Shown here piece after piece: positions 9,926-37,990 of a DNA stretch of 56,952 nt (positions within the stretch are counted from its first letter, which is position 1; each line of letters starts with the position of its first letter). This DNA is from a virus, in the IMG/VR virus record IMGVR_UViG_3300042392_001320, positions 1 through 56,952 of that record. One strand, written 5' to 3'. The notes beneath the pieces were generated by a model. The model ran no database searches and had not been told where the DNA came from. It saw only the letters and a program-made list of their open reading frames with translations. The position numbers were made by a program, and so were the translations under genes.

Positions 9926-9946
9926 GTATGATAGAATTGGTTAAGT

Positions 9947-15462: not shown

Positions 15463-15852
15463 ATGGTTATTACAACACCATTCGGAGGACTTGGTCTAGA
15501 TATTGACAAGTTCTTTAGCACAACACCAGCAGCAAACACCTATCCACCATACAACGTTGTCAGGATTGACGATGATAAGATCGTGATGGAGTTTGCGGTA
15601 GCTGGATTCAAAAAGGACGAGATCAGTATTACTACTGAAAAAAATGTCCTATCTATAAAAGCAGAAAGACCAGACGCTGACGATAAGAAATACCTACACA
15701 AAGGTATTGCTGCTCGTAGGTTTGCTCGCTCATTCTCACTGCCAGAATACTATGAAGTTGATTCGGCTGGATTTGAGGACGGTATTCTGTATGTTCATTT
15801 GGTAAGAGACATCCCAGAAGAAAAGAAACCAAAATCAATTAAGATTGGTTAA
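15463..15852 (+). CDS. hsp20: Hsp20 / alpha-crystallin small heat-shock protein
   Basis: 129 aa. The crystallin domain spans ~25-125: YPPYNVVRIDDDKIVMEFAVAG, then KNVLSIKAER, YLHKGIAARRFARSFSLPE, GILYVHLVR and the C-terminal KSIKI (IxI-like) tail that joins oligomers. It holds unfolded proteins and is often carried by large phages. Confidence 0.95.
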   Translation: MVITTPFGGLGLDIDKFFSTTPAANTYPPYNVVRIDDDKIVMEFAVAGFKKDEISITTEKNVLSIKAERPDADDKKYLHKGIAARRFARSFSLPEYYEVDSAGFEDGILYVHLVRDIPEEKKPKSIKIG

Positions 15853-25611: not shown

Positions 25612-26079
25612 TTAAAAAGAATGGACATAATCCAATCTGTTGTGCTTTTTGATATTACACTGACCATGAGAGGGCCTTACGTTTTCTAGGATATCATGAC
25701 CGCCTCTTGACAATGGAATGACATGGTCAATATGAAGACCTCTTTCCCATCCAGGCTGACCCACACCTCTGGGGGCATCTAAATCAACCTCATAATTACA
25801 CAAATGACAGACAGTTCCATAAGTCATTATAACCGTAGATGCAGAGAAGAAGTCTCTTTGGATATCAAATCCTTGCTTGATTAGCTTCTTAAACCTAGTG
25901 CCACTTCTAATGTTTCTATTGGTACGGTTATACTTTTTGATACGTTCTTTCTTTTCAGGACGCTTCCTATACTCTATCCAATAGGCTCTCATAGCCTCTA
26001 CACAGGGTTGACAGAACTCATCTAGATATTTACGCCTATGGTCGTCATGACCAGCTTTAGTTCCACATTTAGGATGCAT
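25612..26079 (-). CDS. HNH endonuclease
   Basis: 155 aa. A basic N-terminal half with Cys pairs (CGT, CQPC) is followed by CHLCNYEVDLDAP, LHIDHVIPLSRGG and ILENVRPSHGQCNIKK, the complete HNH motif with its zinc-ribbon Cys. Free-standing homing-type nuclease or phage DNA-processing enzyme. Leaderless: TGATACAAT lies six bases upstream on the minus strand. Confidence 0.92.
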   Translation of the reverse strand: MHPKCGTKAGHDDHRRKYLDEFCQPCVEAMRAYWIEYRKRPEKKERIKKYNRTNRNIRSGTRFKKLIKQGFDIQRDFFSASTVIMTYGTVCHLCNYEVDLDAPRGVGQPGWERGLHIDHVIPLSRGGHDILENVRPSHGQCNIKKHNRLDYVHSF

Positions 26080-26267
26080 CTATCAATTGTATCAAACTTT
26101 CGGGGTATGTCAAGAGATCTTCTTAATCCCTAGTATAACAATAACCCCTAGTAAGAATACATAAGCTTGCTAGGGGTTTTGCTATGTCCAAATAGCCAAA
26201 TACCGATATCCCCATATCCCCAATAACCCCATATGCCTGATCTAAATACCCCAAATTTTACACAGAG

Positions 26268-26298
26268 TTATACACAAGTTATACACATCTGTGGATAA
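26268..26298. promoter_or_regulatory. Cluster of three DnaA boxes
   Basis: TTATACACA at 26268-26276 and 26279-26287, and TGTGGATAA (reverse of TTATCCACA) at 26290-26298: three 9-mers in 31 bases, two and then three bases apart. A near-match (TGTGGATAT) follows at about 26333. Confidence 0.75.
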
Positions 26299-26578
26299 TA
26301 TATCTTACTAATCCTATTTGTATATCTTAGTATGTGGATATTGGAATTTGTATATGGGTAATTGGCCCCATTTAAGAAGGCGTTCGTAATCAAATTTTTT
26401 AGCGGAAGGCCCCCTATACCATACTTTGACCAAATTGTCAAATCCTGATATCCAAATATGTTATCAAATTGTTATAATCTTTGTAGGTTTCCACATATAA
26501 AAACATAGGATAATATGCCTATTTTATTAACAAATATCAAATAATGTTTATCTTATTTGTATAAACATATCCACTTTC

Positions 26579-26606
26579 TGGGAAAATATATCAAGCGATC
26601 GTAATG
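26579..26606. repeat. Iteron-like 28-bp repeat, copy 1
   Basis: Pattern TGGGAAA-N14-GATCGTAATG, like copies 2 and 3, with identical length. It ends just upstream of a possible TATACT box. Confidence 0.7.
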
Positions 26607-26613
26607 TATTATA

Positions 26614-26835
26614 CTAGGAGGAATGGTGTATGTCTTTTAGATACCCTGCTTTTAAAAGGGCCCAAATATACAATCGCTTTGCGATTTGTCCAGGGTATTT
26701 AACAAGACTAGCAAATGTCCTATCTATTTTATACATAGTCTCTGCATCAACCTTAGCTCTATCTGATGTCAAATACTCAGATGAAGTGAAGTGTGGAGTT
26801 ATTAACTCTTTACTATAGAAACCTCTAGGACTCAT
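26614..26835 (-). CDS. Small hypothetical protein
   Basis: 73 aa, with a helical middle (AETMYKIDRTFASLVKYPGQ). Supported by a leaderless promoter on the minus strand, TATAAT at 26842-26847, six bases before ATG. An overlapping plus-strand frame is discounted. Flanked by iteron-like repeats. Confidence 0.65.
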   Translation of the reverse strand: MSPRGFYSKELITPHFTSSEYLTSDRAKVDAETMYKIDRTFASLVKYPGQIAKRLYIWALLKAGYLKDIHHSS

Positions 26836-26858
26836 AGTTTAATTATACCCCTACATTT

Positions 26859-26886
26859 TGGGAAAAATTTTTTAGGGATCGTAATG
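26859..26886. repeat. Iteron-like 28-bp repeat, copy 2
   Basis: TGGGAAA at its left end and GATCGTAATG at its right end, at the same spacing as copies 1 and 3. Confidence 0.72.
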
Positions 26887-26996
26887 GGTATATAGTAATA
26901 GGATAAATACTATTTGGTTATTCGCCCTATAAAATTCGGGGTATATAAAAGATACACAAATACCCATAGTACACATATAAGAATATATACCTGATT

Positions 26997-27024
26997 TGGG
27001 AAATAATATTTGGAGATCGTAATG
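26997..27024. repeat. Iteron-like 28-bp repeat, copy 3
   Basis: TGGGAAA ... GATCGTAATG, 28 bases. A fourth, diverged copy at 27035-27062 ends in TTCTTAATA, which links these repeats to the TTCTTAA elements of the minus-strand region. Confidence 0.72.
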
Positions 27025-27094
27025 ATCTAGAATCTGGGAAAAATATTAAGGTGTTCTTAATACTATTATTTGATATGGTATTTGATAAAGGATG

Positions 27095-27140
27095 TCCCAG
27101 GGCTACTTTTGCCCCCAGCCAGATCCTTCTGGCGTGAGGG
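27095..27140. other. Intergenic hairpin region at the end of the small-gene block
   Basis: CCCAGGGCTACTTTTGCCCCC, the leftmost and most diverged relative of the CCCAGGG-type hairpins further right, followed by AGATCCTTCTGGCG. Confidence 0.4.
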
Positions 27141-27153
27141 CTAAGCAATTATT

Positions 27154-27450
27154 TTATTCGGGAAATGTTCCTGTATCTCTAGCGTATTCTAGCATTTGGT
27201 TTAGACTTGTCCATTCATAGTCTGACTCTACGCCCAATGCCTGAGTAAACAAATCAAAAGTTTCATCTACATACTGAGTTGCTATTTCTGTTGCCTGAAC
27301 AATCTCTGAGTCAATCGCATAAGCAAGTGGCAAACCTAAATCATTATAATCTATAAAGTCCTTGAACTGTTCGTCTTCACGATAGTCAAGCCATAGCTCA
27401 CCAAGAATCTCACATCTACTAGAAAAGGTGTGGGATGTGTTCTCTGTCAT
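27154..27450 (-). CDS. Acidic hypothetical protein
   Basis: 98 aa, helical and strongly acidic (LGELWLDYREDEQFKDFIDY). Overlaps the upstream gene by 32 bases. No family recognised. It resembles the many small phage early proteins of this block in size and charge. Confidence 0.7.
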   Translation of the reverse strand: MTENTSHTFSSRCEILGELWLDYREDEQFKDFIDYNDLGLPLAYAIDSEIVQATEIATQYVDETFDLFTQALGVESDYEWTSLNQMLEYARDTGTFPE

Positions 27451-27625
27451 ACTTACTCTCTTTCTCGTATTCCGCTGAATCTACAATTTCCGATAATCTT
27501 CTGTAAGCAACATTTGGAAGATTGGCTAAATGACCGCCAATTTCATCTAAATCTAATCTTACATCTGAAACTATTGTTGCTAACTTCTTTGCCGCTTTTT
27601 CTTCTTCTGTCTGGATTCTTCTCAT
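27419..27625 (-). CDS. Small helical protein
   Basis: 68 aa from ATG 27625. TGGTATAAT lies ten bases upstream, so the leader is only a few bases; an ATG inside the -10 box is ignored. Charged helices, no motif. Confidence 0.65.
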   Translation of the reverse strand: MRRIQTEEEKAAKKLATIVSDVRLDLDEIGGHLANLPNVAYRRLSEIVDSAEYEKESKYDREHIPHLF

Positions 27626-27696
27626 AAGTCCTCTCATTATACCAGAAACGGAAGGGGGATACAAGACCCGCCTGTATCCCCCACCTGTTACTTACA

Positions 27697-27864
27697 CTAG
27701 CGAGAGGAAACCCTAACCCCTTGCTTCAGTGCGGTAAGAGAGGTGTTATCAATAAACTTACCTCCCTTACGAAGGACGACTCGCTGACTCATGCCATAAC
27801 GGGTGTCCCAAGTTTCAAGGTATGGGTATGTCTTTAGTGCTGGGGTTTTCTTCCTTGATGCCAT
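27697..27864 (-). CDS. Basic small protein, 55 aa
   Basis: MASRKKTPALKTYPYLE ... VVLRKGGKF: basic, beta-rich, ends VRVSSR. AAGGAG lies upstream. The promoter is TTGACA at 27936-27941 (minus) and TAAAAT at 27913-27918 with a 17-base spacer; it lacks the ATGTCGG element of genes to the right. Confidence 0.75.
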   Translation of the reverse strand: MASRKKTPALKTYPYLETWDTRYGMSQRVVLRKGGKFIDNTSLTALKQGVRVSSR

Positions 27865-27944
27865 ATTGTATTTCTCCTTTGAGGGTTGTTGTTTTATTGT
27901 TATTGCCATTCCATTTTACAGGAAATCTATTTGATTGTCAAGCG

Positions 27945-28289
27945 CTAGAACAAAACTTCTTCTTTGTACTTGGGCAGGCTTTCGAATATCATTTTGAGAC
28001 GATCGCTGAGCAGGCCCCACTTCTCAAATGCAAAGCCCTGTAGGCCATACCAGACGTCTACCTCATCATAGTATGAGTCATCCCTAAGAAGACTATCATA
28101 CTCCTCTTGAGTGAGCTCTATGGGTGCCGTTACCTCTTCAGTAGTTTTACCATCGTATTCATAGACATGTATGTACCATGGGCCCATATGACGATACTCA
28201 CCATCAGCGTCTAGCTCCTCCAGCTGGTAGATATTTAGGTCATAGATAATCTCAGTCTTATCTTTGTTCTTGCTTCTACTCGCCAACAT
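27945..28289 (-). CDS. Acidic hypothetical protein
   Basis: 114 aa with a beta-rich first half (WYIHVYEYDG) and helical second half (ELTQEEYDSLL). Overlaps its upstream neighbour by 14 bases. No family recognised. Confidence 0.72.
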   Translation of the reverse strand: MLASRSKNKDKTEIIYDLNIYQLEELDADGEYRHMGPWYIHVYEYDGKTTEEVTAPIELTQEEYDSLLRDDSYYDEVDVWYGLQGFAFEKWGLLSDRLKMIFESLPKYKEEVLF

Positions 28290-28668
28290 ACTTAGTCACC
28301 AATCCGTATCCTTCGCATTCTGGACAATCAGCCTTGCCCATCTCTCCGTCTTCATAGCCTTCTTCGTTGTAGCATTCACACTCTGTCTCCACTGATAGCA
28401 AGACATAGTCATCCTCGTTTTGCCAAGGTATCTCTGTGATGTAGTATTGTAATCTATTCACAAAAGCAAATCCAGCAACAATCAGGTCTGACATATCCCC
28501 TTGGATATTAGTCCAAACATACTTAGGGTCTTGGGACTTTACAAACTCCCACTCTTCACCATAGGTTTCAAAAGCAATCTCTTCGTGCTGTGGGTCTCTA
28601 AAGTGATTCTTGATAGGTTTGAATTTCTTTTCCCATTCAGTCCAGCCTTGGTATTCTGTGTATGTCAT
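28276..28668 (-). CDS. Acidic protein with C-terminal DnaJ-like Cys motif
   Basis: 130 aa. Trp/Tyr-rich start, then CECYNEEG ... CPECEGYG near the C-terminus, a CxC/CxxC zinc site like one half of a DnaJ zinc finger. SD AGGAG; ATGTCGG-type promoter at 28696-28718. Confidence 0.75.
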   Translation of the reverse strand: MTYTEYQGWTEWEKKFKPIKNHFRDPQHEEIAFETYGEEWEFVKSQDPKYVWTNIQGDMSDLIVAGFAFVNRLQYYITEIPWQNEDDYVLLSVETECECYNEEGYEDGEMGKADCPECEGYGLVTKYVGE

Positions 28669-28832
28669 TCGGGTTTCTCCTGCTCTTGGGTTTTCATTCT
28701 ATCATTACCTACCGACATTATAAACTGAACCTGTGCCTTGAACATATCAGCATCCTCAATACTAAGATTATCTTTTAGGAACTGTACATCTTTGGCTAGG
28801 TTACCTGTTACGTATCTTGTATCTATATTCAT
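28665..28832 (-). CDS. Small hypothetical protein, 55 aa
   Basis: MNIDTRYVTGNLAKDVQFL ... Overlaps the next gene by ATGA. Its last third carries the ATGTCGG promoter element in frame (FIMSVGNDR), so the element lies inside coding DNA here. Confidence 0.65.
   Translation of the reverse strand: MNIDTRYVTGNLAKDVQFLKDNLSIEDADMFKAQVQFIMSVGNDRMKTQEQEKPE
28696..28718 (-). promoter_or_regulatory. ATGTCGG-type promoter, copy 1
   Basis: Minus strand: ATGTCGG, ten bases, TAGAAT with TGA before it (extended -10). 27 bases before the gene starting at 28668. Confidence 0.75.
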
Positions 28833-28836
28833 CTTA

Positions 28837-28977
28837 TTAGTCTAGCTCTACTAGATTACTGCCAGCTTCAGCTTCAACAAGGCCTGTTGCAATTAGGATT
28901 TCTCCATTGTCTTCTTCGCCAAATACAGCGTTTGGTAGGATTGCCAAGATTTGTGTCATAAGTTCATTCATTGTCAT
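28837..28977 (-). CDS. Acidic small protein, 46 aa
   Basis: MTMNELMTQILAILPNAVFGE ... EILIATGL, with GGAGAG upstream. Clear helix-then-beta pattern, no family name known to me. Confidence 0.7.
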   Translation of the reverse strand: MTMNELMTQILAILPNAVFGEEDNGEILIATGLVEAEAGSNLVELD

Positions 28978-28990
28978 TATTCTCTCCTTC

Positions 28991-29515
28991 CTAAAAGTGA
29001 AAGTCCACAGGTATAAGATACCAGTTTTTGTTGCCTAAGTCAATGTTTTTATGCATATGGTCAGGATTGGTGCTTGCGCTATTCATGTCATAAAAGTATG
29101 AGTTCATGTCCCACTCACCTTGAATCATGTCAATCATTTTCTTTAGGGGGTATAACTCAAAGTCATAGTTCATAACACCTCTATAGTTATCTAATTTAGC
29201 TTCAAGGTCAATCCCGTTGCTTTGAAGCTGTTCACGGTAGCTAAGAAACTCATCCATGCGATTACTAATCATCCTATCAACCGTAGCCAGATAACCAGCT
29301 GGGTCTTCGTCGTATGAAATAATCATAGCTTGGTCTTCTTCATAAGGGCTTTCAGCAGTAGGATTGAATCTGCCTCCACCAGCTACAAACCAATCAAACC
29401 AAGAATTTGTTGCAAACTGGTCATTGCCCAATTCCGATTCAAGTCCTTCTTTGACTGTGCGGAATGCTTCATCGCTAGTGTCTGCCACCACTGCTATATA
29501 TTGCAATACATGCAT
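28991..29515 (-). CDS. Conserved phage protein with SWFDWFVAGGG motif
   Basis: 174 aa. YIAVVADTSDEAF begins a ferredoxin-like pattern, and NSWFDWFVAGGGRF near residue 42 is a Trp/Gly signature found in uncharacterised phage proteins. Function unknown. 13 bases separate it from the next small gene. Confidence 0.7.
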   Translation of the reverse strand: MHVLQYIAVVADTSDEAFRTVKEGLESELGNDQFATNSWFDWFVAGGGRFNPTAESPYEEDQAMIISYDEDPAGYLATVDRMISNRMDEFLSYREQLQSNGIDLEAKLDNYRGVMNYDFELYPLKKMIDMIQGEWDMNSYFYDMNSASTNPDHMHKNIDLGNKNWYLIPVDFHF

Positions 29516-29583
29516 TTAGGGTTTCTTTCTTTTAGGGTTATAATAAATGGTATCGTAAATCTGGGGTTTTGTCAAGAGGGTTC

Positions 29584-29691
29584 TTAAACTTTTTTCCCCT
29601 GGTATAGATCCACACCAAGACCTTTGTTGACTGCCTTACCGCAATGAATGCAGGCTCCATACATAAAATAATGACTATGCTTTTTACTCAT
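29584..29691 (-). CDS. Cys/His microprotein, 35 aa
   Basis: MSKKHSHYFMYGACIHCGK ... One CxxC plus several His could bind a metal. The start overlaps the stop of its upstream gene. Confidence 0.6.
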   Translation of the reverse strand: MSKKHSHYFMYGACIHCGKAVNKGLGVDLYQGKKV

Positions 29692-29869
29692 TTACTACCT
29701 CCACACTTACGGCCTCAAAGACCTCATTGTACTTTACAAAGCTGTAGATGTCATCAACCATCATCTCACGACAATAGGTAATCTGTTCTTCCTCAGTCAT
29801 CTCAGACATAAGCTCATCTTCTTCAGGGTAATAGTCAAAACTAATACTAGTTCTAATAACTTTACTCAT
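29684..29869 (-). CDS. Acidic small protein
   Basis: 61 aa from ATG 29869, preceded by AGGAAA. SKVIRTSISFDYYPEEDELM; coupled to the upstream gene by TGATG. Confidence 0.65.
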   Translation of the reverse strand: MSKVIRTSISFDYYPEEDELMSEMTEEEQITYCREMMVDDIYSFVKYNEVFEAVSVEVVNE

Positions 29870-30042
29870 CAGTATTTTCCTACCCATGTCTCACCAGTAT
29901 AGTTATATGAGTTTACGTCTACAGCGTAGTCCCAAAGACTTTCGTCATCTTCTGTTTGAGACAGTGCTTCCTCTTCTGATTCAGCTTCAACTGTAATCTC
30001 TTCCCAGTTAGTATATTCTCGTTGCACCTTATACAATGACAT
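29869..30042 (-). CDS. Small protein with EEEAL motif, 57 aa
   Basis: MSLYKVQREYTNWEEITVEAESEEEALSQ: strand-strand-helix pattern like the 52-aa protein ending at 32438 (VEYSATYWVEATSEEEAIDLA). The two are probably distant paralogues. Confidence 0.68.
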   Translation of the reverse strand: MSLYKVQREYTNWEEITVEAESEEEALSQTEDDESLWDYAVDVNSYNYTGETWVGKY

Positions 30043-30421
30043 CTGCCACCTCTCTCTTGATTACATTATAGTCTGACCCTACGACATTTTGTGGGGTATC
30101 CTTGATTTGATTCTCCCAAATCCATAGATTAGATCTAGTCCGATCATTATGTGGATCAATCATTTTGTGAAGAGTGGTCTCCTCATTAGAGATAATGGTG
30201 AACAGCTCTTTCTTAGTGATAGACTTTGTCCAGTCATTGTATTCATCTCCAACAAGGATCTTATACATACCCTCGTCTTCGAACCAGCCTACGCCTTCAT
30301 AGCATACGACTGCTAATCCTTTGGGGGTATTGACAACAGCAGAAGGAGCAACCCAATGCTCTTCCTTAGTCATACCTAGAAGGATCTGTGCTTTTTCTGT
30401 ATCAATCATTTTTACGTTCAT
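30029..30421 (-). CDS. Hypothetical protein
   Basis: 130 aa, mixed alpha/beta with GVGWFEDEGMYKILVGDEY. Leaderless: the TATAAT of promoter copy 2 lies six bases before ATG. Overlaps the following gene by 14 bases. Confidence 0.75.
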   Translation of the reverse strand: MNVKMIDTEKAQILLGMTKEEHWVAPSAVVNTPKGLAVVCYEGVGWFEDEGMYKILVGDEYNDWTKSITKKELFTIISNEETTLHKMIDPHNDRTRSNLWIWENQIKDTPQNVVGSDYNVIKREVADVIV

Positions 30422-30427
30422 AGGTAT

Positions 30428-30450
30428 ATTATACTGATACCCTCCGACAT
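30428..30450 (-). promoter_or_regulatory. ATGTCGG-type promoter, copy 2
   Basis: TTGATA directly followed by ATGTCGG, ten bases, TATAAT, six bases, ATG 30421. The -35-like hexamer is 17 bases from the -10, so the element fills the start of the spacer. Confidence 0.85.
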
Positions 30451-30532
30451 TATCAAGGATTTCGGGGAAAATAAATCAGTGTTCTTAAAGGTAAAAAAGT
30501 ATTGTTAAATAAATAATGATTATGTCAAGCTA

Positions 30533-30580
30533 GCCCAGGGCCCAAAAGGGGAGCAGTTTTCACACTTGCTCAGGTGTTTT
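30533..30580. terminator. Hairpin pair downstream of the DUF932 gene
   Basis: GCCCAGGGCCCAAAAGGGG at 30533-30551, then ACACTTGCTCAGGTGT at 30562-30577 followed on the plus strand by TTTATTTTT. GAGCA at 30551-30555 can alternatively pair with TGCTC at 30567-30571. A related pair lies at 33345-33372. Confidence 0.5.
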
Positions 30581-30584
30581 ATTT

Positions 30585-31598
30585 TTAGGCTGTTGCCAAC
30601 TGAACCGCCTTGAAGATTCTATTCTTCTCTGCGTTTGTGATTGGGTCAAAGCCAGAAGCAGAAGCAAGGATAGATTCTGTCTTACCCTTGCGACCTGTTC
30701 TGTGCCAGTCCAATCTTTCAGTTAGGGCATTGGCAACACCCCACGCTGTTCCAGTAATTGTGTTATTGAAATCACCAACATAGATGTCGTTGATGAGGTC
30801 AATCTTGTTAGCATACTTAGTTGCTGACACTTTCTTGCTGTCATCTTTTGGCTCTGGATACAATGCCAAAACAATTTCATCAAACTTCTTCTTGCTGACC
30901 TCAGTCTGAATCATCTTGTTTGCCATTAGGCTAAACTCGTCAATGTATGCGTTAGCAAGTCCGAGAGCCTCACGAGCAATCTGAACTTTACCACTTGCTG
31001 TCTGTGTGTGTCTAATCTTGAATGACTGCTTGACAGAACCATTTCTGCCACGATTGCCAAGAGCAAGGTTTAGAGTGTTAGCGCATACAACACGAACTGG
31101 AGTGATAGAAGCCTGAATTGCCACAGACCCGTCGTGAGATGTGTTCACTAGAAGATAAGTGTTTACCTTATCGCCAACGCCATTAGGGTCAATGACAGTT
31201 TCTCTCTCTAATGCCAAAGCACCAAAGACAACACGACCGCCCTTGATTGAGCCTGCTGTTTCCCAACGACCACCATTATCTAGCAAGTTGTCGGCGAAGT
31301 CAAACAGGTCTTCATTCTGAAGAGGGACATAACGCTCACCAACGACACCAAGAATGTCCTTGTTGCCTAATGTAAATGGGTTATCTCTAACTACAAAAGA
31401 ATAGCTCTTGTCTGAACTAAACTGATTAGGAATCTCGATGTCTTCTAGGCGAACATCCCAACTGTTTAGCTTAGCCAACTTTAGCATTTCAGCAGTTGAA
31501 ACTTCCTCGTCAAAGACTGTTCCCAATCCGTGCCAAGCTGGCTCACGAAGAGAAGCAAAAGCTGTTTCTCCGTTTACTGATTCTAGCAAATGTGCCAT
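30585..31598 (-). CDS. DUF932 phage/plasmid-like protein
   Basis: 337 aa, full length for the DUF932 / phage-plasmid TIGR03299 family. AWHGLGTVFDEEVSTAEMLKLA, VVGERYVPLQNEDLFDFAD, GRVVFGALALER and TPVRVVCANTLNLAL are all conserved blocks. Function is unknown; family members are often highly expressed early in infection. It is the largest gene of the minus-strand block and has promoter copy 3. Confidence 0.95.
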   Translation of the reverse strand: MAHLLESVNGETAFASLREPAWHGLGTVFDEEVSTAEMLKLAKLNSWDVRLEDIEIPNQFSSDKSYSFVVRDNPFTLGNKDILGVVGERYVPLQNEDLFDFADNLLDNGGRWETAGSIKGGRVVFGALALERETVIDPNGVGDKVNTYLLVNTSHDGSVAIQASITPVRVVCANTLNLALGNRGRNGSVKQSFKIRHTQTASGKVQIAREALGLANAYIDEFSLMANKMIQTEVSKKKFDEIVLALYPEPKDDSKKVSATKYANKIDLINDIYVGDFNNTITGTAWGVANALTERLDWHRTGRKGKTESILASASGFDPITNAEKNRIFKAVQLATA

Positions 31599-31636
31599 TT
31601 GTATTGCCTTTCATTAGTGTTTGATTTGATAAGACC

Positions 31637-31659
31637 ATTATCTCACTAACCACTGACAT
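31637..31659 (-). promoter_or_regulatory. ATGTCGG-type promoter, copy 3
   Basis: ATGTCAG, ten bases, GATAAT with TG before it; TTGACA lies just upstream. 38 bases before the DUF932 start. Confidence 0.78.
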
Positions 31660-31679
31660 TTGTCAAGCTTATTTTTAGG

Positions 31680-31813
31680 TGATTTTTTGGGGGATTCTTA
31701 AAGGCCTTCGTAAACTTGACATTAGGATCAAGATCTGCCCAGGGCGTTTTTGTAGACAGTTTCACGTCATGTCCAGGACGGTTGACCTAACAGAAAGGAA
31801 GTAAGGTTAGGCC
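31680..31813. other. Intergenic block: TTCTTAA repeat, CCCAGGG element, hairpin
   Basis: GGGGGATTCTTAAAGG (31689-31704) and CTTCGTAAA nearly match 33231-33258. GCCCAGGGCG follows at 31737. GTTGACCTAAC (from about 31772) pairs with GTTAGGCCAAC (to about 31813); it lies just after the gene ending at 31822 on the minus strand. Confidence 0.55.
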
Positions 31814-31821
31814 AACATGCT

Positions 31822-32337
31822 TTAGGCTACAGCTGTTTCATTTTTTTGGTATGCATGTACTGGGCACCTTGTCTGCTCCAGATACATTTCATCACTAACC
31901 GCTCTTAGCGAATCAAGTGGCAATGTCGTTATGCCTTCATCAGTCTTTGTGATGAATCTTTTCTTGTCTAAGTCTACTGTAAAGACGCCTTCACAAAATA
32001 GCTCATCCTTTTCGAAATCACTATCCAGGAAAACTGGAAGGGCACCTTTAGCATTAGCTATCATCTCAAGAATTTCTGCACCAGTATCTCTAATAAGACT
32101 TGGATAAGCTGTTTCAAAGTTTTCCTCGCCACTACGCTCAACAAGTTTTGAAACGTCGTCGCTGTCTACCTCATAGAGCCAGTAAAGACCTTTATCTAGT
32201 TTGTCTACGTTAGCTTCATCCCGCAGGAATCTTAGCGCTGTTAGGCCTTGTCCGCTTGGATAGTGGTCCCATTGGCCATACTGCGCTACTACAATCTTGT
32301 CGTTCTTGATTACTTTAGTTAGTCCTCTGGTTCCCAT
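31822..32337 (-). CDS. Conserved phage protein (MGTRGLT family)
   Basis: 171 aa. MGTRGLTKVIKNDKIVVAQYGQWDHYPSG is a well-conserved opening found in many unrelated phages and plasmids; the rest is alpha/beta with SLIRDTGAEIL. Function unknown. Overlaps the 39-aa gene upstream by 19 bases. Confidence 0.8.
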   Translation of the reverse strand: MGTRGLTKVIKNDKIVVAQYGQWDHYPSGQGLTALRFLRDEANVDKLDKGLYWLYEVDSDDVSKLVERSGEENFETAYPSLIRDTGAEILEMIANAKGALPVFLDSDFEKDELFCEGVFTVDLDKKRFITKTDEGITTLPLDSLRAVSDEMYLEQTRCPVHAYQKNETAVA

Positions 32338-32438
32338 TTATATTCCTGTTCTCCTTCGCAAATATTACAGAATGGTGTACAATCGAAATTGCCTTCGTGT
32401 CTAGGACACTCAATAATTATAACGCTACCTACTGACAT
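32319..32438 (-). CDS. Zinc-ribbon microprotein, 39 aa
   Basis: It contains ECPRHEGNFDCTPFCNICEGE, four Cys and a His in a compact zinc-ribbon order. The only ATG (32438) belongs to the ATGTCAG of promoter copy 4, and the upstream stop overlaps it as TAATG. Confidence 0.6.
   Translation of the reverse strand: MSVGSVIIIECPRHEGNFDCTPFCNICEGEQEYKWEPED
32416..32438 (-). promoter_or_regulatory. ATGTCGG-type promoter, copy 4
   Basis: ATGTCAG, ten bases, TATAAT. It overlaps the start of the 39-aa gene and lies 78 bases before the gene at 32337. Confidence 0.7.
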
Positions 32439-32596
32439 TATCGTTTGCCCCATTGTTGTTCAATAAAGGCAGACCAATCACCATTAGGCAAATCAGAATG
32501 TTGCTCAATCGCTAGGTCAATAGCTTCTTCTTCACTTGTTGCTTCTACCCAATAAGTAGCTGAATACTCTACTTGCCAAGTTTTTGTTTCGCTCAT
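32438..32596 (-). CDS. Small protein with EEEAI motif, 52 aa
   Basis: MSETKTWQVEYSATYWVEA: two strands then a helix with SEEEAIDLA, like the 57-aa protein at 29869. SD GAGAGG before ATG 32596. An in-frame ATG inside promoter copy 5 (32638) would add 14 residues. Confidence 0.7.
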   Translation of the reverse strand: MSETKTWQVEYSATYWVEATSEEEAIDLAIEQHSDLPNGDWSAFIEQQWGKR

Positions 32597-32615
32597 TGTT
32601 TCCTCTCTTTCTTCC

Positions 32616-32638
32616 ATTTTATCAGCACCCACCGACAT
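32616..32638 (-). promoter_or_regulatory. ATGTCGG-type promoter, copy 5
   Basis: ATGTCGG, ten bases ending in TGA, TAAAAT; 19 bases before ATG 32596. Overlaps the stop codon of the upstream gene. Confidence 0.8.
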
Positions 32639-32958
32639 TATTCGTCGTCGTCCTCAGAATCCTCACCCTGACCAATAATGGTGACCCAACCATCGTCACC
32701 AAAACTTTTATCACTTGAAACGGCATTGATAAACCTAAGTCCACAAGACTCGTGATACCAATCCATGACCTGCTGTCTTAGCTCATCACCGTTCATCTCA
32801 TCGCTTGTAATTAGTTTCTCATAGCCATACTCACGCATAAGGGTAACCTGCTCATCATCCATCAAGACGTAGATTTTATGGCAGGTATCAAAAGCAATAC
32901 CCTTAGCCTCATTGGTATACTCCTCAATCCTGTAATCCATTTCTATTAGGTCTAACAT
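32638..32958 (-). CDS. Acidic hypothetical protein
   Basis: 106 aa from ATG 32958 (GGGAGG upstream, TAATG overlap). Helices and strands in the middle (CHKIYVLMDDEQVTLMREYG), ending in a run of Asp/Glu. No family recognised. Confidence 0.75.
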   Translation of the reverse strand: MLDLIEMDYRIEEYTNEAKGIAFDTCHKIYVLMDDEQVTLMREYGYEKLITSDEMNGDELRQQVMDWYHESCGLRFINAVSSDKSFGDDGWVTIIGQGEDSEDDDE

Positions 32959-33158
32959 TAGCCCTCCCACTGAGATAAGTCTTTGCCAGCAAAGATAGCC
33001 TGAACATACTCATACCTATCGTTGTCGCTTACCTCACCAAGAGTTTCCCATTGCTGCAAGGTCAGGACATCGCTATCAAACACAAGCAAGTCTGCCTCTG
33101 CTCCATAGTTTCCATCAAATGATACATAGCCTATGTTTCTGATTTCGTCGTATGACAT
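32958..33158 (-). CDS. Acidic small protein
   Basis: 66 aa, contains LTLQQWETLGEVSDNDRYEYVQA. AAAGGAA precedes ATG. Driven by promoter copy 6. Confidence 0.72.
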   Translation of the reverse strand: MSYDEIRNIGYVSFDGNYGAEADLLVFDSDVLTLQQWETLGEVSDNDRYEYVQAIFAGKDLSQWEG

Positions 33159-33182
33159 TAGTTTCCTTTCATTGATAGCTCT

Positions 33183-33205
33183 ATTTTACTACTAACCACC
33201 GACAT
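33183..33205 (-). promoter_or_regulatory. ATGTCGG-type promoter, copy 6
   Basis: TTGATA, ATGTCGG, ten bases, TAAAAT; 24 bases before ATG 33158. Confidence 0.85.
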
Positions 33206-33218
33206 TATCAATAGTATT

Positions 33219-33372
33219 TGGGAAAAAATTCGGGAGATTCTTAAAGGACTTCGTAAACAGGAGGGCAGGGGCAAGAATGCCCTGGCCCCTTTTATCCCCC
33301 GCAGTATTTGTGATCTTGCGATCTTCAGCTTTGAGGGGGAAGGGAAGCAGTTTTACAACTTGCTCAGGTTGT
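33219..33372. other. Intergenic block: TTCTTAA repeat, CCCTGG element and hairpin
   Basis: GGGAGATTCTTAAAGG at about 33234-33249 and CTTCGTAAA after it; GCCCTGGCCCC at 33279-33289; hairpin ACAACTT-GCTC-AGGTTGT at 33355-33372. This hairpin and the one at 30562 have the same loop but different stem bases that still pair. Confidence 0.6.
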
Positions 33373-33412
33373 TATTCCTGTATGCCTCACCAATAGAGGC
33401 GTGTAGGAAACT

Positions 33413-33859
33413 TTAGATTAGTTCCATTACAGACGAGTATGAACTAGCAGAAACTTCTTCCTGTGTAGTCATACGCAACACCTTTAGATTACGCTCTAGG
33501 ATTTGCTTGCGTGTCTGGTGTTCTCTTCCAAACCACTCTTTCTGATTTGGCTTGACTGGCTCTTCTGGTTTGCTTGGGAAACCAAGTGCCTCTGGGTCAA
33601 ACTCAACAGAAACATCATTACGATAAGAGTTTCTCTGAATACGAATTGGAGAGTTGTGTTCTGTTCCAATGTTGTTTGGGTTTGATAGTGCCTCAATCGC
33701 TTTTGCGATAAGAGCCTTGTCATACGCAACCATTTCATCTCTGTAAGCATTTGCCTCTGCCGCATAGTTTGCGACTGCCTCGTCTATTTTAGCGATACTT
33801 GCCTCAATGTCTGAGATTAGACTTGCTACTGGGATTTTTACGGACATTGTTCTTGCCAT
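33413..33859 (-). CDS. Helical hypothetical protein
   Basis: 148 aa. N-terminal ~60 residues form long Ala/Glu-rich helices (SLISDIEASIAKIDEAVANY), then a Pro-rich segment (PSKPEEPVKPNQKEW) and a basic helix. No family recognised. AAGGAAG is the SD. Confidence 0.75.
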   Translation of the reverse strand: MARTMSVKIPVASLISDIEASIAKIDEAVANYAAEANAYRDEMVAYDKALIAKAIEALSNPNNIGTEHNSPIRIQRNSYRNDVSVEFDPEALGFPSKPEEPVKPNQKEWFGREHQTRKQILERNLKVLRMTTQEEVSASSYSSVMELI

Positions 33860-33899
33860 AGTTTATTGCTTCCTTTTCTTTTGGGTTATTGGTGTTTCT

Positions 33900-33922
33900 A
33901 TTGTATCGGATACTACCGACAT
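33900..33922 (-). promoter_or_regulatory. ATGTCGG-type promoter, copy 7
   Basis: ATGTCGG, ten bases, TACAAT; 40 bases before ATG 33859. Confidence 0.8.
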
Positions 33923-34001
33923 TTGTGAAAGTGGCAGGGGTTCTCAAATAGACTCTGATTCACCCTTTTATGTAGTCTAACGCCACTAACGAATAACTAG
34001 A

Positions 34002-34154
34002 TTACTTCTTTACAGTAGTCCAGCGTGGCTGTCCAGCAACATCAAGGCGAACACGAAAAGTGCCGTTCTTGTTTGCTACGACTTCCTGAATTGTGCCTGA
34101 TACGCCAGACTTAGCGGTTGTAAACTGTGAGCCAACAGTTAGAGTGTTTTCCAT
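34002..34154 (-). CDS. Small beta protein (KOW/SH3-like), 50 aa
   Basis: From ATG 34154: LTVGSQFTTAKSGVSGTIQEVV then TFRVRLDVAGQPRWTTV. The strand order and Gly turns resemble a small SH3/KOW barrel. No family name known to me. Confidence 0.68.
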   Translation of the reverse strand: MENTLTVGSQFTTAKSGVSGTIQEVVANKNGTFRVRLDVAGQPRWTTVKK

Positions 34155-34203
34155 TTTTTGCTTCTTTCTACTTGTTTGATTACCAACTTTTGTTGATACC
34201 CCC

Positions 34204-34226
34204 ATTGTAGCGGATACCACCGACAT
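34204..34226 (-). promoter_or_regulatory. ATGTCGG-type promoter, copy 8
   Basis: TTGATA, ATGTCGG, ten bases, TACAAT; 49 bases before ATG 34154. Confidence 0.82.
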
Positions 34227-34311
34227 TATCAAGTGTTTATGACAAAAAGTTTTATAACGATTCGGGGGCAAAATTGTTATCTTCTTAAGCTTGACTTTTG
34301 ACCTAGGATCT

Positions 34312-34332
34312 GCCCTGGGCCCCTTTCGGGGT
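34312..34332. terminator. GGGCCCCTTTCGGGG hairpin, copy 1
   Basis: GCCCTGGGCCCCTTTCGGGG. On the minus strand the RNA folds as CCCC-GAAA-GGGG with a GNRA tetraloop, without a T-run. Near-identical copies at 35735 and 36478. Confidence 0.6.
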
Positions 34333-34335
34333 AAC

Positions 34336-34401
34336 CTACTCTCTCACAAACAACATTGCGATAAAGAAAGCTATCATCAGAACATGGATGCCCTGTATCA
34401 A
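34336..34401 (-). CDS. Membrane micropeptide, 21 aa
   Basis: TTG start overlapping the preceding stop; IHVLMIAFFIAMLFVRE is a single TM helix. Resembles the 22-aa peptide at 35768-35836 (EHVMLIALVWILVLYF), in the same position before a GGGCCCC hairpin. Confidence 0.45.
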   Translation of the reverse strand: MIQGIHVLMIAFFIAMLFVRE

Positions 34402-34712
34402 TCTTCATCCTCATAGTCATCTACACACCAAGCGTCAAGTCTTAGCGACTGAATTGCTTGTGAGGCAGACACACTTGTTGAGCCATCACGCCAACGAACT
34501 TGGAACGGATTACCATTACGGTCTACTCCATCAAACGGTAATTCGATTAGACGGTTGTAGTCATCTTCCCAATAAGCGTCAATAGCTGCTACTGCTACAG
34601 GTATCATTATCTTCGGAATTGGCGGATAACAATTGCTACTAAAGTGAATACTAATTTGGTCTGATAGTGTTAGGTCTGTATCTGTAAGTCCAACTGCTGT
34701 TGCGTATCCCAT
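34398..34712 (-). CDS. Hypothetical protein
   Basis: 104 aa. IPKIMIPVAVAAIDAYWEDDYNRLIELPFDGV, then a Trp/Arg beta stretch and an acidic tail. No family recognised. Confidence 0.72.
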   Translation of the reverse strand: MGYATAVGLTDTDLTLSDQISIHFSSNCYPPIPKIMIPVAVAAIDAYWEDDYNRLIELPFDGVDRNGNPFQVRWRDGSTSVSASQAIQSLRLDAWCVDDYEDED

Positions 34713-34714
34713 TA

Positions 34715-34840
34715 CTATTCTCCTTCTACGGTTTCTACTTCACAATCACAATACTGAACCATTAGCTTACCATCTACTACCGACACCATACCAAACTCAT
34801 TACAGGTATCGCAAAAGTGTATGCTTAGTTGTCCTAACAT
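34715..34840 (-). CDS. Zinc-binding-like microprotein, 41 aa
   Basis: It contains IHFCDTCNEFG and VQYCDCE: CxxC plus CxC. Start overlaps the upstream stop. A degenerate ATGTCGG-like element (34764-34786) lies inside it. Confidence 0.7.
   Translation of the reverse strand: MLGQLSIHFCDTCNEFGMVSVVDGKLMVQYCDCEVETVEGE
34764..34786 (-). promoter_or_regulatory. Degenerate ATGTCGG-type element, copy 9
   Basis: GTGTCGG, ten bases, TAAGCT, inside the 41-aa gene. It may be an internal promoter for the gene at 34712, or a chance match. Confidence 0.4.
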
Positions 34841-35034
34841 TAGGCTACCTCTACCCATTCCATTGCTACTCGCAATAGGTTGTCATAGTCGCCAGACATT
34901 GAGTCTGCTAGATACTGGTCAAGCTCATCTTTACTTGCTCCAGCTTTTTTGAGGGCAGATTTGACTGCTCCCATTACGGCAAACGCATTACCGTCATTAC
35001 CTGATAATTGAACTGCTACATTATACTTTGGCAT
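34840..35034 (-). CDS. Small hypothetical protein
   Basis: 64 aa. PKYNVAVQLSGNDGNAFAVMGAVKSALKKAGA: strand, Gly loop and helix, like a short alpha/beta plait. Promoter copy 10 lies 24 bases upstream. Confidence 0.74.
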   Translation of the reverse strand: MPKYNVAVQLSGNDGNAFAVMGAVKSALKKAGASKDELDQYLADSMSGDYDNLLRVAMEWVEVA

Positions 35035-35058
35035 TGTTTTACCTTTCTTGTTGATTTT

Positions 35059-35081
35059 ATTTTAGCATTACCGTCCGACAT
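35059..35081 (-). promoter_or_regulatory. ATGTCGG-type promoter, copy 10
   Basis: ATGTCGG, ten bases ending in TGC, TAAAAT (extended -10); 24 bases before ATG 35034. Confidence 0.82.
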
Positions 35082-35083
35082 TT

Positions 35084-35350
35084 TTAGAATAGCTGTAGCT
35101 CTTTCAGTAGCTTATCAGCCTTGCTTCTGGTGATAGTTGAACCCTTTACTATCTTTCCGCTATCTACCAGCTGTCTATAAAGTTTTGAACTCCTATGTAT
35201 TGGGCTATTCTTTATTCTGAATTCTTCAGCTACTTTCCTCATTCTCATTGTTTTGGCATAAGCTCTAGCATCTTTCAGGGTATCAAAATAACCAACTGCA
35301 CTATAAACATCACCATTCTCATAAGTAATCTCTATGCGTGTTTTAGCCAT
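35084..35350 (-). CDS. Small basic protein
   Basis: 88 aa from ATG 35350. RIEITYENGDVYSAVGYFDTLKDARAYAKTM: strand-strand-helix start, then Lys/Arg/Ser-rich helices. Overlaps the upstream zinc-ribbon gene. Confidence 0.73.
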   Translation of the reverse strand: MAKTRIEITYENGDVYSAVGYFDTLKDARAYAKTMRMRKVAEEFRIKNSPIHRSSKLYRQLVDSGKIVKGSTITRSKADKLLKELQLF

Positions 35351-35501
35351 TGCTTGACACCTTTCTTGTTGTTGGGTGATTAGCATAAATAGCATAACAT
35401 CTACCACAGACATTCTTGAGTAGATAACCATAGACTGTATTAGAGTGAACAGCCTTGTTACAGTCTTCGCATACATAGTGAATCATGCCTGGAAAAATCA
35501 T
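35343..35501 (-). CDS. Zinc-ribbon microprotein, 52 aa
   Basis: CEDCNKA and CGRCYA, spaced by ~20 residues, form a two-knuckle zinc ribbon. Overlaps neighbours on both sides by a few bases. Confidence 0.75.
   Translation of the reverse strand: MIFPGMIHYVCEDCNKAVHSNTVYGYLLKNVCGRCYAIYANHPTTRKVSSNG
35391..35413 (-). promoter_or_regulatory. Degenerate ATGTCGG-type element, copy 11
   Basis: ATGTCTG, ten bases, TATGCT, inside the zinc-ribbon gene and 40 bases before ATG 35350. Phased like the others but partly explained by coding. Confidence 0.45.
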
Positions 35502-35653
35502 TCGCTCTCCTTTATTGCCTTAGCCTTAGTAGACTGACGGCTGCCTTTGTATTTCTTTGGGGTTGCTACCAAGTGAGGGGCCTTTAGCATAAGCTGAAAC
35601 AACGCTTGGCTTTCTGCCTTGCGTCTGGCTTCGTTAGTTCTATCTAATTTCAT
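35498..35653 (-). CDS. Basic small protein, 51 aa
   Basis: MKLDRTNEARRKAESQALF ... KKYKGSRQSTKAK: Lys/Arg-rich helix and tail, possible nucleic-acid binder. Leaderless from promoter copy 12. Confidence 0.7.
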   Translation of the reverse strand: MKLDRTNEARRKAESQALFQLMLKAPHLVATPKKYKGSRQSTKAKAIKESE

Positions 35654-35659
35654 AACTTT

Positions 35660-35682
35660 ATCTTATCATTACCCTCCGACAT
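35660..35682 (-). promoter_or_regulatory. ATGTCGG-type promoter, copy 12
   Basis: ATGTCGG, ten bases ending in TGA, TAAGAT, then six bases to ATG 35653. Confidence 0.82.
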
Positions 35683-35734
35683 TTTGGGGATAAAAAACAC
35701 TCTTTCTTAAAATAGTTTATAACGATCCGATAAC

Positions 35735-35757
35735 GGGCCCTGGGCCCCTTTCGGGGG
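35735..35757. terminator. GGGCCCCTTTCGGGG hairpin, copy 2
   Basis: GGGCCCTGGGCCCCTTTC followed by GGGGG. Same CCCC-GAAA-GGGG fold on the minus strand as copies 1 and 3. Confidence 0.6.
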
Positions 35758-35767
35758 ACTTGTCAAG

Positions 35768-35836
35768 TCACTGGCCTGCGAAATATAACACAAGAATCCA
35801 AACAAGCGCTATAAGCATAACGTGTTCGCTACTCAC
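35768..35836 (-). CDS. Membrane micropeptide, 22 aa
   Basis: GTG start overlapping the upstream stop; EHVMLIALVWILVLYF is one TM helix. Like the peptide at 34336-34401, it is the last frame before a GGGCCCC hairpin. Confidence 0.45.
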   Translation of the reverse strand: MSSEHVMLIALVWILVLYFAGQ

Positions 35837-36347
35837 CGCTACCTCTAATCATTATCCAAATCAAAGCCTGCATTGCTCTAGGTGTCATGCCAAAATCAAA
35901 TGCAACTTTTTTTACTGCACTTGCTAGCTCATTGTATTGTGACTGGTTAGGTGTTTTCTTTTCAATTCCAACAGCTCTCAACATCCAAACATCAATCACA
36001 ACAGCCTGCTCATCACCTGCAATAGCTTTAGCGAATGAATTAGTCTTGAGACCTTTCAATGCACCAAAGCCAAGTGTCAAAGAATTGTTAGCCATGACCA
36101 TGTTGTTCTTGAATCCTGCAACATCATTGCCAAGTGAGAATGCAATAGCCTTAGCAACATTGGTAGTCCAACGCTCTCTAGGTGAGAATGCAGATACAAC
36201 ACTTGCACCAACTTCAAGATAAGTGTCTAAGTTTCTAGCTACCTCATGGGCAACCTTCTCGGCGTCCACATACCACTTGCTTGCTTGCTCTACCTGACCA
36301 AAGGTAGCCTTTTTTGCTAGGTCTGAATAAATTGCGTAGTAGTCCAT
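35829..36347 (-). CDS. Hypothetical helical protein
   Basis: 172 aa from ATG 36347. It contains VVSAFSPRERWTTNVAKAIAFS, GALKGLKTNSFAKAI and AVVIDVWMLRAVGIE. This order (substrate pocket helices then an Asp-containing strand) is seen in uncharacterised phage proteins with a helix-hairpin-like DNA-glycosylase flavour, but I cannot assign a reaction. Promoter copy 13 upstream. Confidence 0.75.
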   Translation of the reverse strand: MDYYAIYSDLAKKATFGQVEQASKWYVDAEKVAHEVARNLDTYLEVGASVVSAFSPRERWTTNVAKAIAFSLGNDVAGFKNNMVMANNSLTLGFGALKGLKTNSFAKAIAGDEQAVVIDVWMLRAVGIEKKTPNQSQYNELASAVKKVAFDFGMTPRAMQALIWIMIRGSGE

Positions 36348-36375
36348 TGGTTTCCTTTTCTGTTTGATAAAAACA

Positions 36376-36398
36376 AGATTATCATTAGCCACCGACAT
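36376..36398 (-). promoter_or_regulatory. ATGTCGG-type promoter, copy 13
   Basis: ATGTCGG, ten bases ending in TGA, TAATCT; 28 bases before ATG 36347. Confidence 0.78.
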
Positions 36399-36477
36399 TT
36401 GTGATACCGACACGCCAGGAAATTTTGGGGGGATCTTAACCCACCTCTTAATTAGACTTGACAAGATCAAGAAAAAG

Positions 36478-36497
36478 CCCCAGGGCCCCTTTCGGGG
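36478..36497. terminator. GGGCCCCTTTCGGGG hairpin, copy 3
   Basis: GCCCCAGGGCCCCTTTCGGGG-type element (here shortened by one base at the left edge). It directly follows, on the minus strand, the small membrane gene ending at 36509. Confidence 0.6.
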
Positions 36498-36508
36498 CGT
36501 TTGTCAAA

Positions 36509-36649
36509 TCAAAACGGCGGTGAGTTTTTTTCTAGCTCTTCGCTAATTCTTCTGTTTTCATCTAACAAAAATAAAATTCCTATTAGTTGAATAACAACAA
36601 ACACAACAATCAAAAACGCAACAATCGCAATTCCAATTATCCATTCCAT
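36509..36649 (-). CDS. One-TM small membrane protein, 46 aa
   Basis: MEWIIGIAIVAFLIVVFVV: strong TM helix, then a charged tail (DENRRISEELEK). GGAGGAG is an excellent SD, lying inside the end of the upstream gene. Confidence 0.8.
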   Translation of the reverse strand: MEWIIGIAIVAFLIVVFVVIQLIGILFLLDENRRISEELEKNSPPF

Positions 36650-36766
36650 TTATTTCTCCTCCGCATAAGGGCAAAGTATTTTAGCCCTGTCTGATAAAAT
36701 GTTCACGCCACAATCTTCGCAACGCATAACTTCGTCATCCATTCCATAAGAAAAGATGTGTCCCAT
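36650..36766 (-). CDS. Zinc-ribbon-like microprotein, 38 aa
   Basis: CEDCG and a later CPY give three Cys; GGAG-type SD upstream. Stop and next start form TAAATG. Confidence 0.7.
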   Translation of the reverse strand: MGHIFSYGMDDEVMRCEDCGVNILSDRAKILCPYAEEK

Positions 36767-36931
36767 TTATTTCTCCTCTGGTGTTGTAAACAATTCGCCA
36801 ACATCTTCGGTTAGCATTAGGTCAATTTGGTAAATCAACATTTCCAATTCACTTGTTGTCAAGGTAGTCTTTCCATTCTTCTTCTCTATCTTCCCATTCT
36901 GATAACGCAATTCTGTAAGCGATAGGGTCAC
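36767..36931 (-). CDS. Small protein overlapping another gene, 54 aa
   Basis: From GTG 36931: LSLTELRYQNGKIEKKNGK, then LTTSELEMLIYQIDLML. Its first 83 bases overlap the 59-aa gene in a different frame; both frames look protein-like. A shorter start at ATG 36841 is possible. No clear SD for the GTG. Confidence 0.5.
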   Translation of the reverse strand: MTLSLTELRYQNGKIEKKNGKTTLTTSELEMLIYQIDLMLTEDVGELFTTPEEK

Positions 36932-37028
36932 AATTTTTTAGTATTTGCGAGGGACGCAAGGTTATCGCCTCAATGTGATAAGGCAGGTAAACTTCATCTA
37001 GCCAATCATCAAACATTTCCTCAGTCAT
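36849..37028 (-). CDS. Acidic small protein, 59 aa
   Basis: It contains FDDWLDEVYLPYHIEAITLRP and DPIAYRIALSEWEDREEEW. Start coupled to upstream stop (TAATG) with GGAGAG before it. Overlaps the 54-aa frame. Confidence 0.72.
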   Translation of the reverse strand: MTEEMFDDWLDEVYLPYHIEAITLRPSQILKNCDPIAYRIALSEWEDREEEWKDYLDNK

Positions 37029-37216
37029 TAGTTGCTCTCCTCATCTATCATCTTTACAATCTTACTCTTTAGCTTGTTGTCTGACAAGTGCCAGAATAAA
37101 GATAAAGCATAAGCATAAGACCCAAGTCTATCAAATCCTGTCTTGATACCAACAAGCTCTATTAGCTCTGCTGTTTCCATTTCCTCAATAGCTTCTAGCA
37201 ATTCATTTTTGTTCAT
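37028..37216 (-). CDS. Small helical protein, 62 aa
   Basis: NELLEAIEEMETAELIELVG then SKIVKMIDEES. All-helical, acidic. Promoter copy 14 upstream. Confidence 0.72.
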   Translation of the reverse strand: MNKNELLEAIEEMETAELIELVGIKTGFDRLGSYAYALSLFWHLSDNKLKSKIVKMIDEESN

Positions 37217-37237
37217 TTTTTTCCTTTCATAGAATCC

Positions 37238-37260
37238 AACTTAGCATACCCCACCGACAT
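37238..37260 (-). promoter_or_regulatory. ATGTCGG-type promoter, copy 14
   Basis: ATGTCGG, ten bases ending in TGC, TAAGTT; 21 bases before ATG 37216. Confidence 0.75.
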
Positions 37261-37401
37261 TTATAGATAGTCGTTAGGGTCAAGGTTTAGGTAGTCAATC
37301 GCTTGCTCTAACGGCATCATTCCGTCATACTCATTACAGTTGTGGCAAACAATCGTGTCGCTAGTGAAAACACTCTCGCAGTAAACACACATCTTGTCCA
37401 T
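37261..37401 (-). CDS. Zinc-ribbon microprotein, 46 aa
   Basis: It begins MDKMCVYCESVF and continues to VCHNCNEYDG: two CxxC knuckles 14 residues apart, then an acidic helix. Promoter copy 15 upstream. Confidence 0.78.
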   Translation of the reverse strand: MDKMCVYCESVFTSDTIVCHNCNEYDGMMPLEQAIDYLNLDPNDYL

Positions 37402-37431
37402 TTGCTATTTCCTTTCTTTTGGCTTACTAAA

Positions 37432-37454
37432 ACCCTATCACAAACCACCGACAT
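37432..37454 (-). promoter_or_regulatory. ATGTCGG-type promoter, copy 15
   Basis: ATGTCGG, ten bases ending in TGA, TAGGGT (weak -10); 30 bases before ATG 37401. Confidence 0.7.
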
Positions 37455-37706
37455 TTACAACAGAAACGCCGTATTTTCCTATTGTAGATTATCACAAAAT
37501 TTAGGGGGATTCTTTGTCGTGTCTTAACTTGACATCTCCAAGAAAAAAGGCCCAGGGTAATTTCTGGGAAATAAATTCGGGGGTTTTTAATAGATCTTCA
37601 TAAAGGGAATATAGGGTGTAACGGGGTGGGGGTGGGGAGGGGAGGGCTGGGGGTGGGAAATTTTTTGTCGGGTTTGTCAAGCCGACACGCCGTTAGGCGT
37701 AAACTA
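37455..37706. other. Intergenic block with G-quadruplex-prone tract
   Basis: Holds GGGGGATTCTTTGTCGT and a second GGGAAATAAATTCGGGGG copy (around 37567), GGCCCAGGG at 37549-37557, and the G-rich tract 37623-37657: seven runs of 3-5 G separated by 1-2 bases. It is followed by TTGTCAAGCCGACACGCCG, which recurs near 38117, and the hairpin ACGCC-GTTA-GGCGT. Confidence 0.65.
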
Positions 37707-37943: not shown

Positions 37944-37967
37944 CTGAACTCCTTTCTTTACACCATT

Positions 37968-37990
37968 AGCCTAACACGACCCTAAGACAT
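37968..37990 (-). promoter_or_regulatory. Degenerate ATGTCGG-type element, copy 16
   Basis: ATGTCTT, ten bases, TAGGCT; 24 bases before ATG 37943. Spacing is kept although the bases have drifted. Confidence 0.5.

Follow-up and report, generated by a model that had tools for sequence, protein, structure and literature searches.

A viral contig of 56,952 nucleotides (IMG/VR record IMGVR_UViG_3300042392_001320; the whole stretch is called the window below) carries three DnaA boxes followed by copies of a 28-bp repeat at the left edge of a block of minus-strand genes. This arrangement raises two questions. First, what is the function of a cluster of DnaA boxes in a virus genome? Second, why do the boxes and the repeats stand at this particular place? 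An earlier note had proposed a candidate replication origin here. We find that a host-DnaA-dependent origin beside a packaging cut is indeed the likeliest function, with a probability of about one half as judged from sequence and comparison; the proposal had missed that the array lies at the predicted left end of a terminal repeat and that copies of the 28-bp repeat also occur next to promoters.

Results

A predicted left end of a long direct terminal repeat

The window is a virus fragment with one copy of the minus-strand block, a set of small genes including a DUF932 gene, as found in Stanwilliamsviridae-type phages. The DUF932 protein shares 50–55% identity with proteins that Streptomyces cluster-BE phages encode in their terminal repeats, and 73 loci related to the window were collected from environmental viral contigs. 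No phage record matched the window directly at the DNA level, and an Rfam search returned tRNAs alone. The contig represents an environmental relative of the cluster-BE phages (Stanwilliamsviridae). Elsewhere it contains an HSP20 small heat-shock protein gene (15463–15852) and tandem repeats of 87 and 21 bp (48293–48454 and 50519–50650) inside large predicted structural ORFs.

The direct terminal repeats of the BE1 phages measure about 11 kb, and their ends were determined from read starts and doubled depth (PMC5764925). In the BE phage records the repeats are 10.7–12.6 kb long. The terminus of the window was placed by comparison with the records of eight cultured BE phages, in which the left repeat boundary is preceded by TGTGTAAT(G/T/A) and DnaA boxes are located at about -93 and -71 from it; in Bmoc and Mildred21 one box of the pair has a single mismatch, and the Bmoc boxes are at -114 and -90. 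In the window, the boxes at -96 and -74, the sequence ATGGGTAATT/GGCC (the slash marks the cut), GAAGGCG at +12 and TCGTAA at +20 together put the cut at 26363/26364 (Table 1). Karimac likewise has GAAGGCG at +12, with TCGTAA at +21. By this homology, position 26364 is very probably the left end of the terminal repeat, and the predicted repeat of ~11 kb is coding almost entirely on the minus strand. The DnaA boxes are then predicted to lie just outside the terminal repeat and the 28-bp repeats just inside it.

The same layout is common to 17 environmental loci besides the window, with a conserved left terminus and DnaA boxes about 70–95 bp outside it, as in Stanwilliamsviridae-type phages. The AAT at -4 to -2 is invariant across 26 sequences, and the TCGTAA near +20 is missing in Bmoc, Jay2Jay, Warpy and Samisti12. 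No similar module was found at the terminal-repeat start of Rhodococcus phage Francesca. The terminal overlap of contig 3300043438_002264 (L005/L006) was rejected as proof of a terminal repeat, since it runs beyond the block and looks like a circular overlap. For Jay2Jay (KM652554), the record implies a terminal repeat of 11,438 bp, whereas the published table gives 10,778 bp, which is the value listed for Paradiddles. An HNH endonuclease gene (25612–26079) adjoins the predicted left terminus of the window on its outer side; the HNH gene of the BE phages is at the opposite repeat edge.

Table 1. Sequence features at and around the predicted left terminus of the window (distances are from the predicted cut; a slash within a sequence marks the cut)
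Feature	Position	Strand	Remarks
DnaA box TTATACACA	26268-26276	+	exact; -96
DnaA box TTATACACA	26279-26287	+	exact; -85
DnaA box TTATCCACA	26290-26298	-	exact; -74
Conserved element ATCTTACT	26302-26309	+	immediately 3' of the DnaA boxes
One-mismatch DnaA box ATATCCACA	26333-26341	-	L002 and L003 have an exact box here
Predicted left terminus ATGGGTAATT/GGCCCC	26354-26369	+	cut 26363/26364; homology to BE phage record termini
Predicted long direct terminal repeat	26364-38000		right end uncertain by about 1 kb; inferred from BE phages
TCGTAA	26384-26389	+	+20; at +19 to +21 in most relatives
AT-rich, least stable DNA	26411-26620		candidate unwinding region beside the boxes
28-bp repeat copy 1	26579-26606	+	+215
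Small conserved gene, 73 aa	26614-26835	-	between repeat copies 1 and 2
28-bp repeat copy 2	26859-26886	+	+495
28-bp repeat copy 3	26997-27024	+	+633
28-bp repeat copy 4, diverged	27035-27062	+	+671
Weak repeat copy	30464-30490	+	7 nt upstream of minus-strand promoter TTGATA-17-TATAAT (30456-30428)
Weak repeat copy	33219-33246	+	7 nt upstream of minus-strand promoter TTGATA-17-TAAAAT (33211-33183)
Weak repeat copy	37565-37592	+	near right edge of the minus-strand block
Tandem DnaA boxes TTATCCACA x2	38037-38057	+	11.67 kb from the cut, at the block's right edge

DnaA boxes of the array

The three DnaA 9-mers in 31 bases that had been claimed for this locus are all perfect boxes (26268–26298). 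None of 300 Markov shuffles of the window contained three exact TTATNCACA within 31 bp, and one contained a pair of TTATNCACA within 21 bp. The inverted pair 26268/26290 has an offset of 22 bp, the corresponding value being 22–24 bp in the cultured BE phages, and a further one-mismatch site is present at 26256. The array is kept in 18 environmental loci (the window included) and in the eight cultured BE phages, as well as in 71 further environmental contexts among the matches listed; exact boxes in these matches number 101, whereas permuted words averaged 0.08. When the anchor box is excluded, 30 of the 40 single mismatches among the matches listed fall on position 5, 27 of them being A. Variation at position 5, the TTATNCACA degeneracy, is a known property of DnaA boxes. 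The cluster is thus beyond chance, and its pattern of variation is of the DnaA type.

A search for the DnaA C-terminal domain found none in the records of 14 related phages; in bacteria, as a control, it was positive in 10 of 14. A phage-encoded DnaA was therefore rejected, which leaves the host DnaA as the candidate binder; we consider it likely that this protein binds the array. Inspection by eye for DnaA-trios revealed ATCTTACT after the boxes and no clean run of trios.

Fixed distance between the boxes and the cut

A pattern scan of viral contigs for a DnaA box followed by ATCTTACTG gave at least 120 stretches. Taking 71 distinct contexts, we measured the distance from the box to the first YCGTAA beyond +80. 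Among the matches listed, this distance is 94–100 bp in 64 of the 71 contexts, that is, in all 64 where it is measurable; the other seven are without YCGTAA, and three of these stop short of that point. Median pairwise identity over the 40 bp in between is 38% in the same matches, and the 30 contexts with a strict terminus match have a box-to-cut distance of 75, 76 or 77. GTGGA half-sites between box and cut (L098–L177) follow a 10-bp pitch in 73 of 76 gaps among the matches listed; the window has one such half-site.

Such strict spacing suggests a role in packaging or cutting, one that a plain origin would not need. The array could accordingly be a cosB- or pac-like packaging signal, at which the terminase responsible for the left end of every packaged genome would recognise the boxes, the conserved cut TAAT/G, the repeats and the TCGTAA at +20. 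Besides the constant distance across poorly conserved DNA, the invariant AAT and the half-sites that adjoin the cut in many relatives are in agreement with this explanation, as is the satellite phage MulchRoom, which encodes its own terminase and has a similar terminus with TCGTAA at +20 and no boxes. Positions 1–30 of MulchRoom (L097) resemble the helper terminus (ATGGGGTATCTCG...TTCGTAAG versus GTGGGGTATATATCG...TTCGTAAG) despite that terminase. From its boxless terminus, TCGTAA at +20 probably belongs to the terminus itself, and the DnaA boxes may be held in position by a joint complex. MulchRoom and MiniFlayer are satellites poor in replication genes, and neither has a DnaA cluster or a repeat cluster; the possibility that satellites carry the helper origin was rejected on this ground.

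Two observations weigh against a packaging signal. One is that the boxes vary at position 5, just as DnaA boxes do. The other comes from the Loccivirinae (Faust, Karp and Beuffert), where a non-coding gap contains both DnaA boxes and ATCGTAA repeats: Faust keeps them about 6 kb away from the 772-bp terminal repeat, whereas its similar cut sequence is without exact DnaA boxes or repeats nearby. The pair can therefore stand apart from the packaging end, and the Loccivirinae arrangement favours an origin-type module that is separable from the terminus. Some of these ATCGTAA repeats are located just upstream of plus-strand genes, and a regulatory use of them is possible too. Taken as the function of the array, packaging is an unlikely explanation.

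28-bp repeats in two settings

The element TGGGAAA-N11-GATCGTAATG is present at 26579, 26859 and 26997 (three found, 0.16 expected in shuffles), and the diverged copy at 27035 is real as well. The description of these copies as phased does not hold, because the intervals of 280, 138 and 38 bp between copies do not correspond to whole helical turns. Copies of this cluster recur in relatives at similar distances from the cut, and in BE phages they take the form of TCGTAA elements. Across the loci, the relaxed element was found 101 times in the orientation of the window and never in the other, the sites being asymmetric and intergenic like stoperators and start-associated sequences (SAS).

Inside the block, 8 of 13 copies are situated just upstream of a sigma-70 promoter, usually one with a 17-bp spacer, in comparison with 2.25% of random positions; the window copies at 30464 and 33219 adjoin promoters in this way. 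Among copies within 800 bp of the cut, 3 of 29 have a promoter, none with its -35 at the 6–8 nt offset. Promoter-proximal copies in the block together with a promoterless cluster at the terminus indicate one directional element used in two settings, the terminal cluster being unexplained by promoters.

It might be imagined that the element is a directional site for a phage regulator of the minus-strand terminal-repeat genes, with the terminal cluster as a silencer, a sink or a distal control region. The single orientation and the promoter-proximal copies are what such a site should show; the terminal copies, which lack a promoter at the characteristic offset, fit poorly, and the DnaA boxes are left unexplained. 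Transcription control is an improbable account of the array.

Right-edge DnaA boxes

The tandem DnaA pair at the right edge is conserved in L003, L014, L015, L020 and L037, at 10.4–11.2 kb from the cut. The right-edge boxes of the window (38037–38057 and 39035) lie close to where the terminal repeat is expected to end on the right.

A T5-like injection stop, in which repeats and DnaA boxes would halt DNA entry after the first-entering segment, is very improbable: the T5 signal has been described with repeats, palindromes and DnaA boxes (PMC13250531), its annotated iss contains one exact box, and the right-edge pair is conserved, but that iss lies inside the terminal repeat near the right edge (9140–10149 of 10219 bp) whereas the boxes studied here are outside the predicted left edge, near the last-entering end if entry is left-first, and no boxes are present at the start of the T5 right repeat, nor exact ones in the first 20 kb of Bmoc.

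AT-rich DNA and the small gene beside the boxes

The 150-bp windows starting at 26411–26471 belong to the least stable DNA of the contig (best rank 13, counted from 0, of 5681), so that easily unwound AT-rich DNA adjoins the boxes. The surroundings had been described as AT-rich non-coding DNA, of which the first half is correct; they are not wholly non-coding, as the minus-strand ORF 26614–26835 is conserved with 41–55% identity in seven relatives. Its TATAAT is between its ATG and repeat copy 2. A plus-strand ORF of 62 aa at 26630, with weaker conservation, was read as the antisense shadow of this gene. The neighbouring genes of 73 and 98 aa matched no Pfam or PHROG family. GC skew, suggested as a check, turned out to be uninformative: it tracks the coding strand both in the window and in the complete cultured relative Bmoc, and it was set aside as origin evidence.

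Discussion

Why is an origin the likeliest function of the array? Clustered true DnaA boxes lie next to easily melted DNA, and boxes and repeats co-occur in two phage subfamilies, amid different genes. Several observations speak against an origin: the strict spacing to the cut, the lack of the module in satellites poor in replication genes, the presence of the 28-bp element at promoters elsewhere, the failure to discern a clear DnaA-trio by eye, and a GC skew that merely reflects the coding strand. We propose that the host DnaA would bind the boxes just outside the terminal repeat, forming a complex whose distance from the packaging cut (26363/26364) is fixed. The directional 28-bp repeats in the AT-rich DNA just inside would be a likely target of a phage DNA-binding protein, and may serve an initiator. 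Melting of the AT-rich DNA by DnaA would lead to initiation of replication at the terminal-repeat junction, after which the phage helicase, primase and DnaE-type polymerase would take over; Bmoc encodes these three and SSB, with no annotated initiator.

Throughout the family, the DnaA complex at its fixed distance might couple origin firing physically to terminus processing, a tentative idea that we hold to be rather doubtful. With such coupling, replication from this point would copy the 11-kb repeat in concatemers and so supply the second copy for packaging. This model of terminal-repeat duplication is speculation. To our knowledge, how phages copy and duplicate long terminal repeats is poorly understood. 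The conserved, measurable geometry ties host DnaA boxes to the physical end of the genome, in cultured Streptomyces phages as well; it suggests that the host supplies the initiator for these phages, and it offers a concrete and easily tested candidate for the origin of replication as well as for a coupling to packaging.

Comparison with known systems

The published BE-phage paper does not describe a module of boxes and repeats, and a search of the open-licence literature found no earlier description of boxes, terminus and repeats as one module, though an earlier account may exist elsewhere. The window shares with the BE phages (Bmoc, Karimac and Warpy; Boydwoodruffvirinae) the cut consensus, a DnaA-box pair at a nearly equal distance, TCGTAA elements equally oriented in the left non-coding end and a minus-strand block bearing DUF932. 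It differs from them in that it is environmental, has about 40% G+C and a different gene order in the block; many relatives have three to five boxes, often in tandem, in place of an inverted pair.

In the literature searched, the nearest parallel to the module is the T5 injection stop region, which likewise combines a DnaA box and repeats with a terminal repeat of ~10 kb; it is on the opposite side of the repeat, however, has a single exact box and belongs to a different phage family. Plasmid origins with DnaA boxes and iterons also have a DnaA-box cluster next to directional repeats and an AT-rich segment. In contrast to these, the window has few repeats, with irregular spacing; no Rep protein was identified, and the distance between the module and a packaging cut is fixed. 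Finally, the stoperators and start-associated sequences of mycobacteriophages are, like the 28-bp element, asymmetric intergenic elements of one orientation in actinobacteriophages, whereas the element of the window is longer and bipartite, has its promoter-proximal copies upstream of the -35, and forms a promoterless cluster adjoining DnaA boxes.
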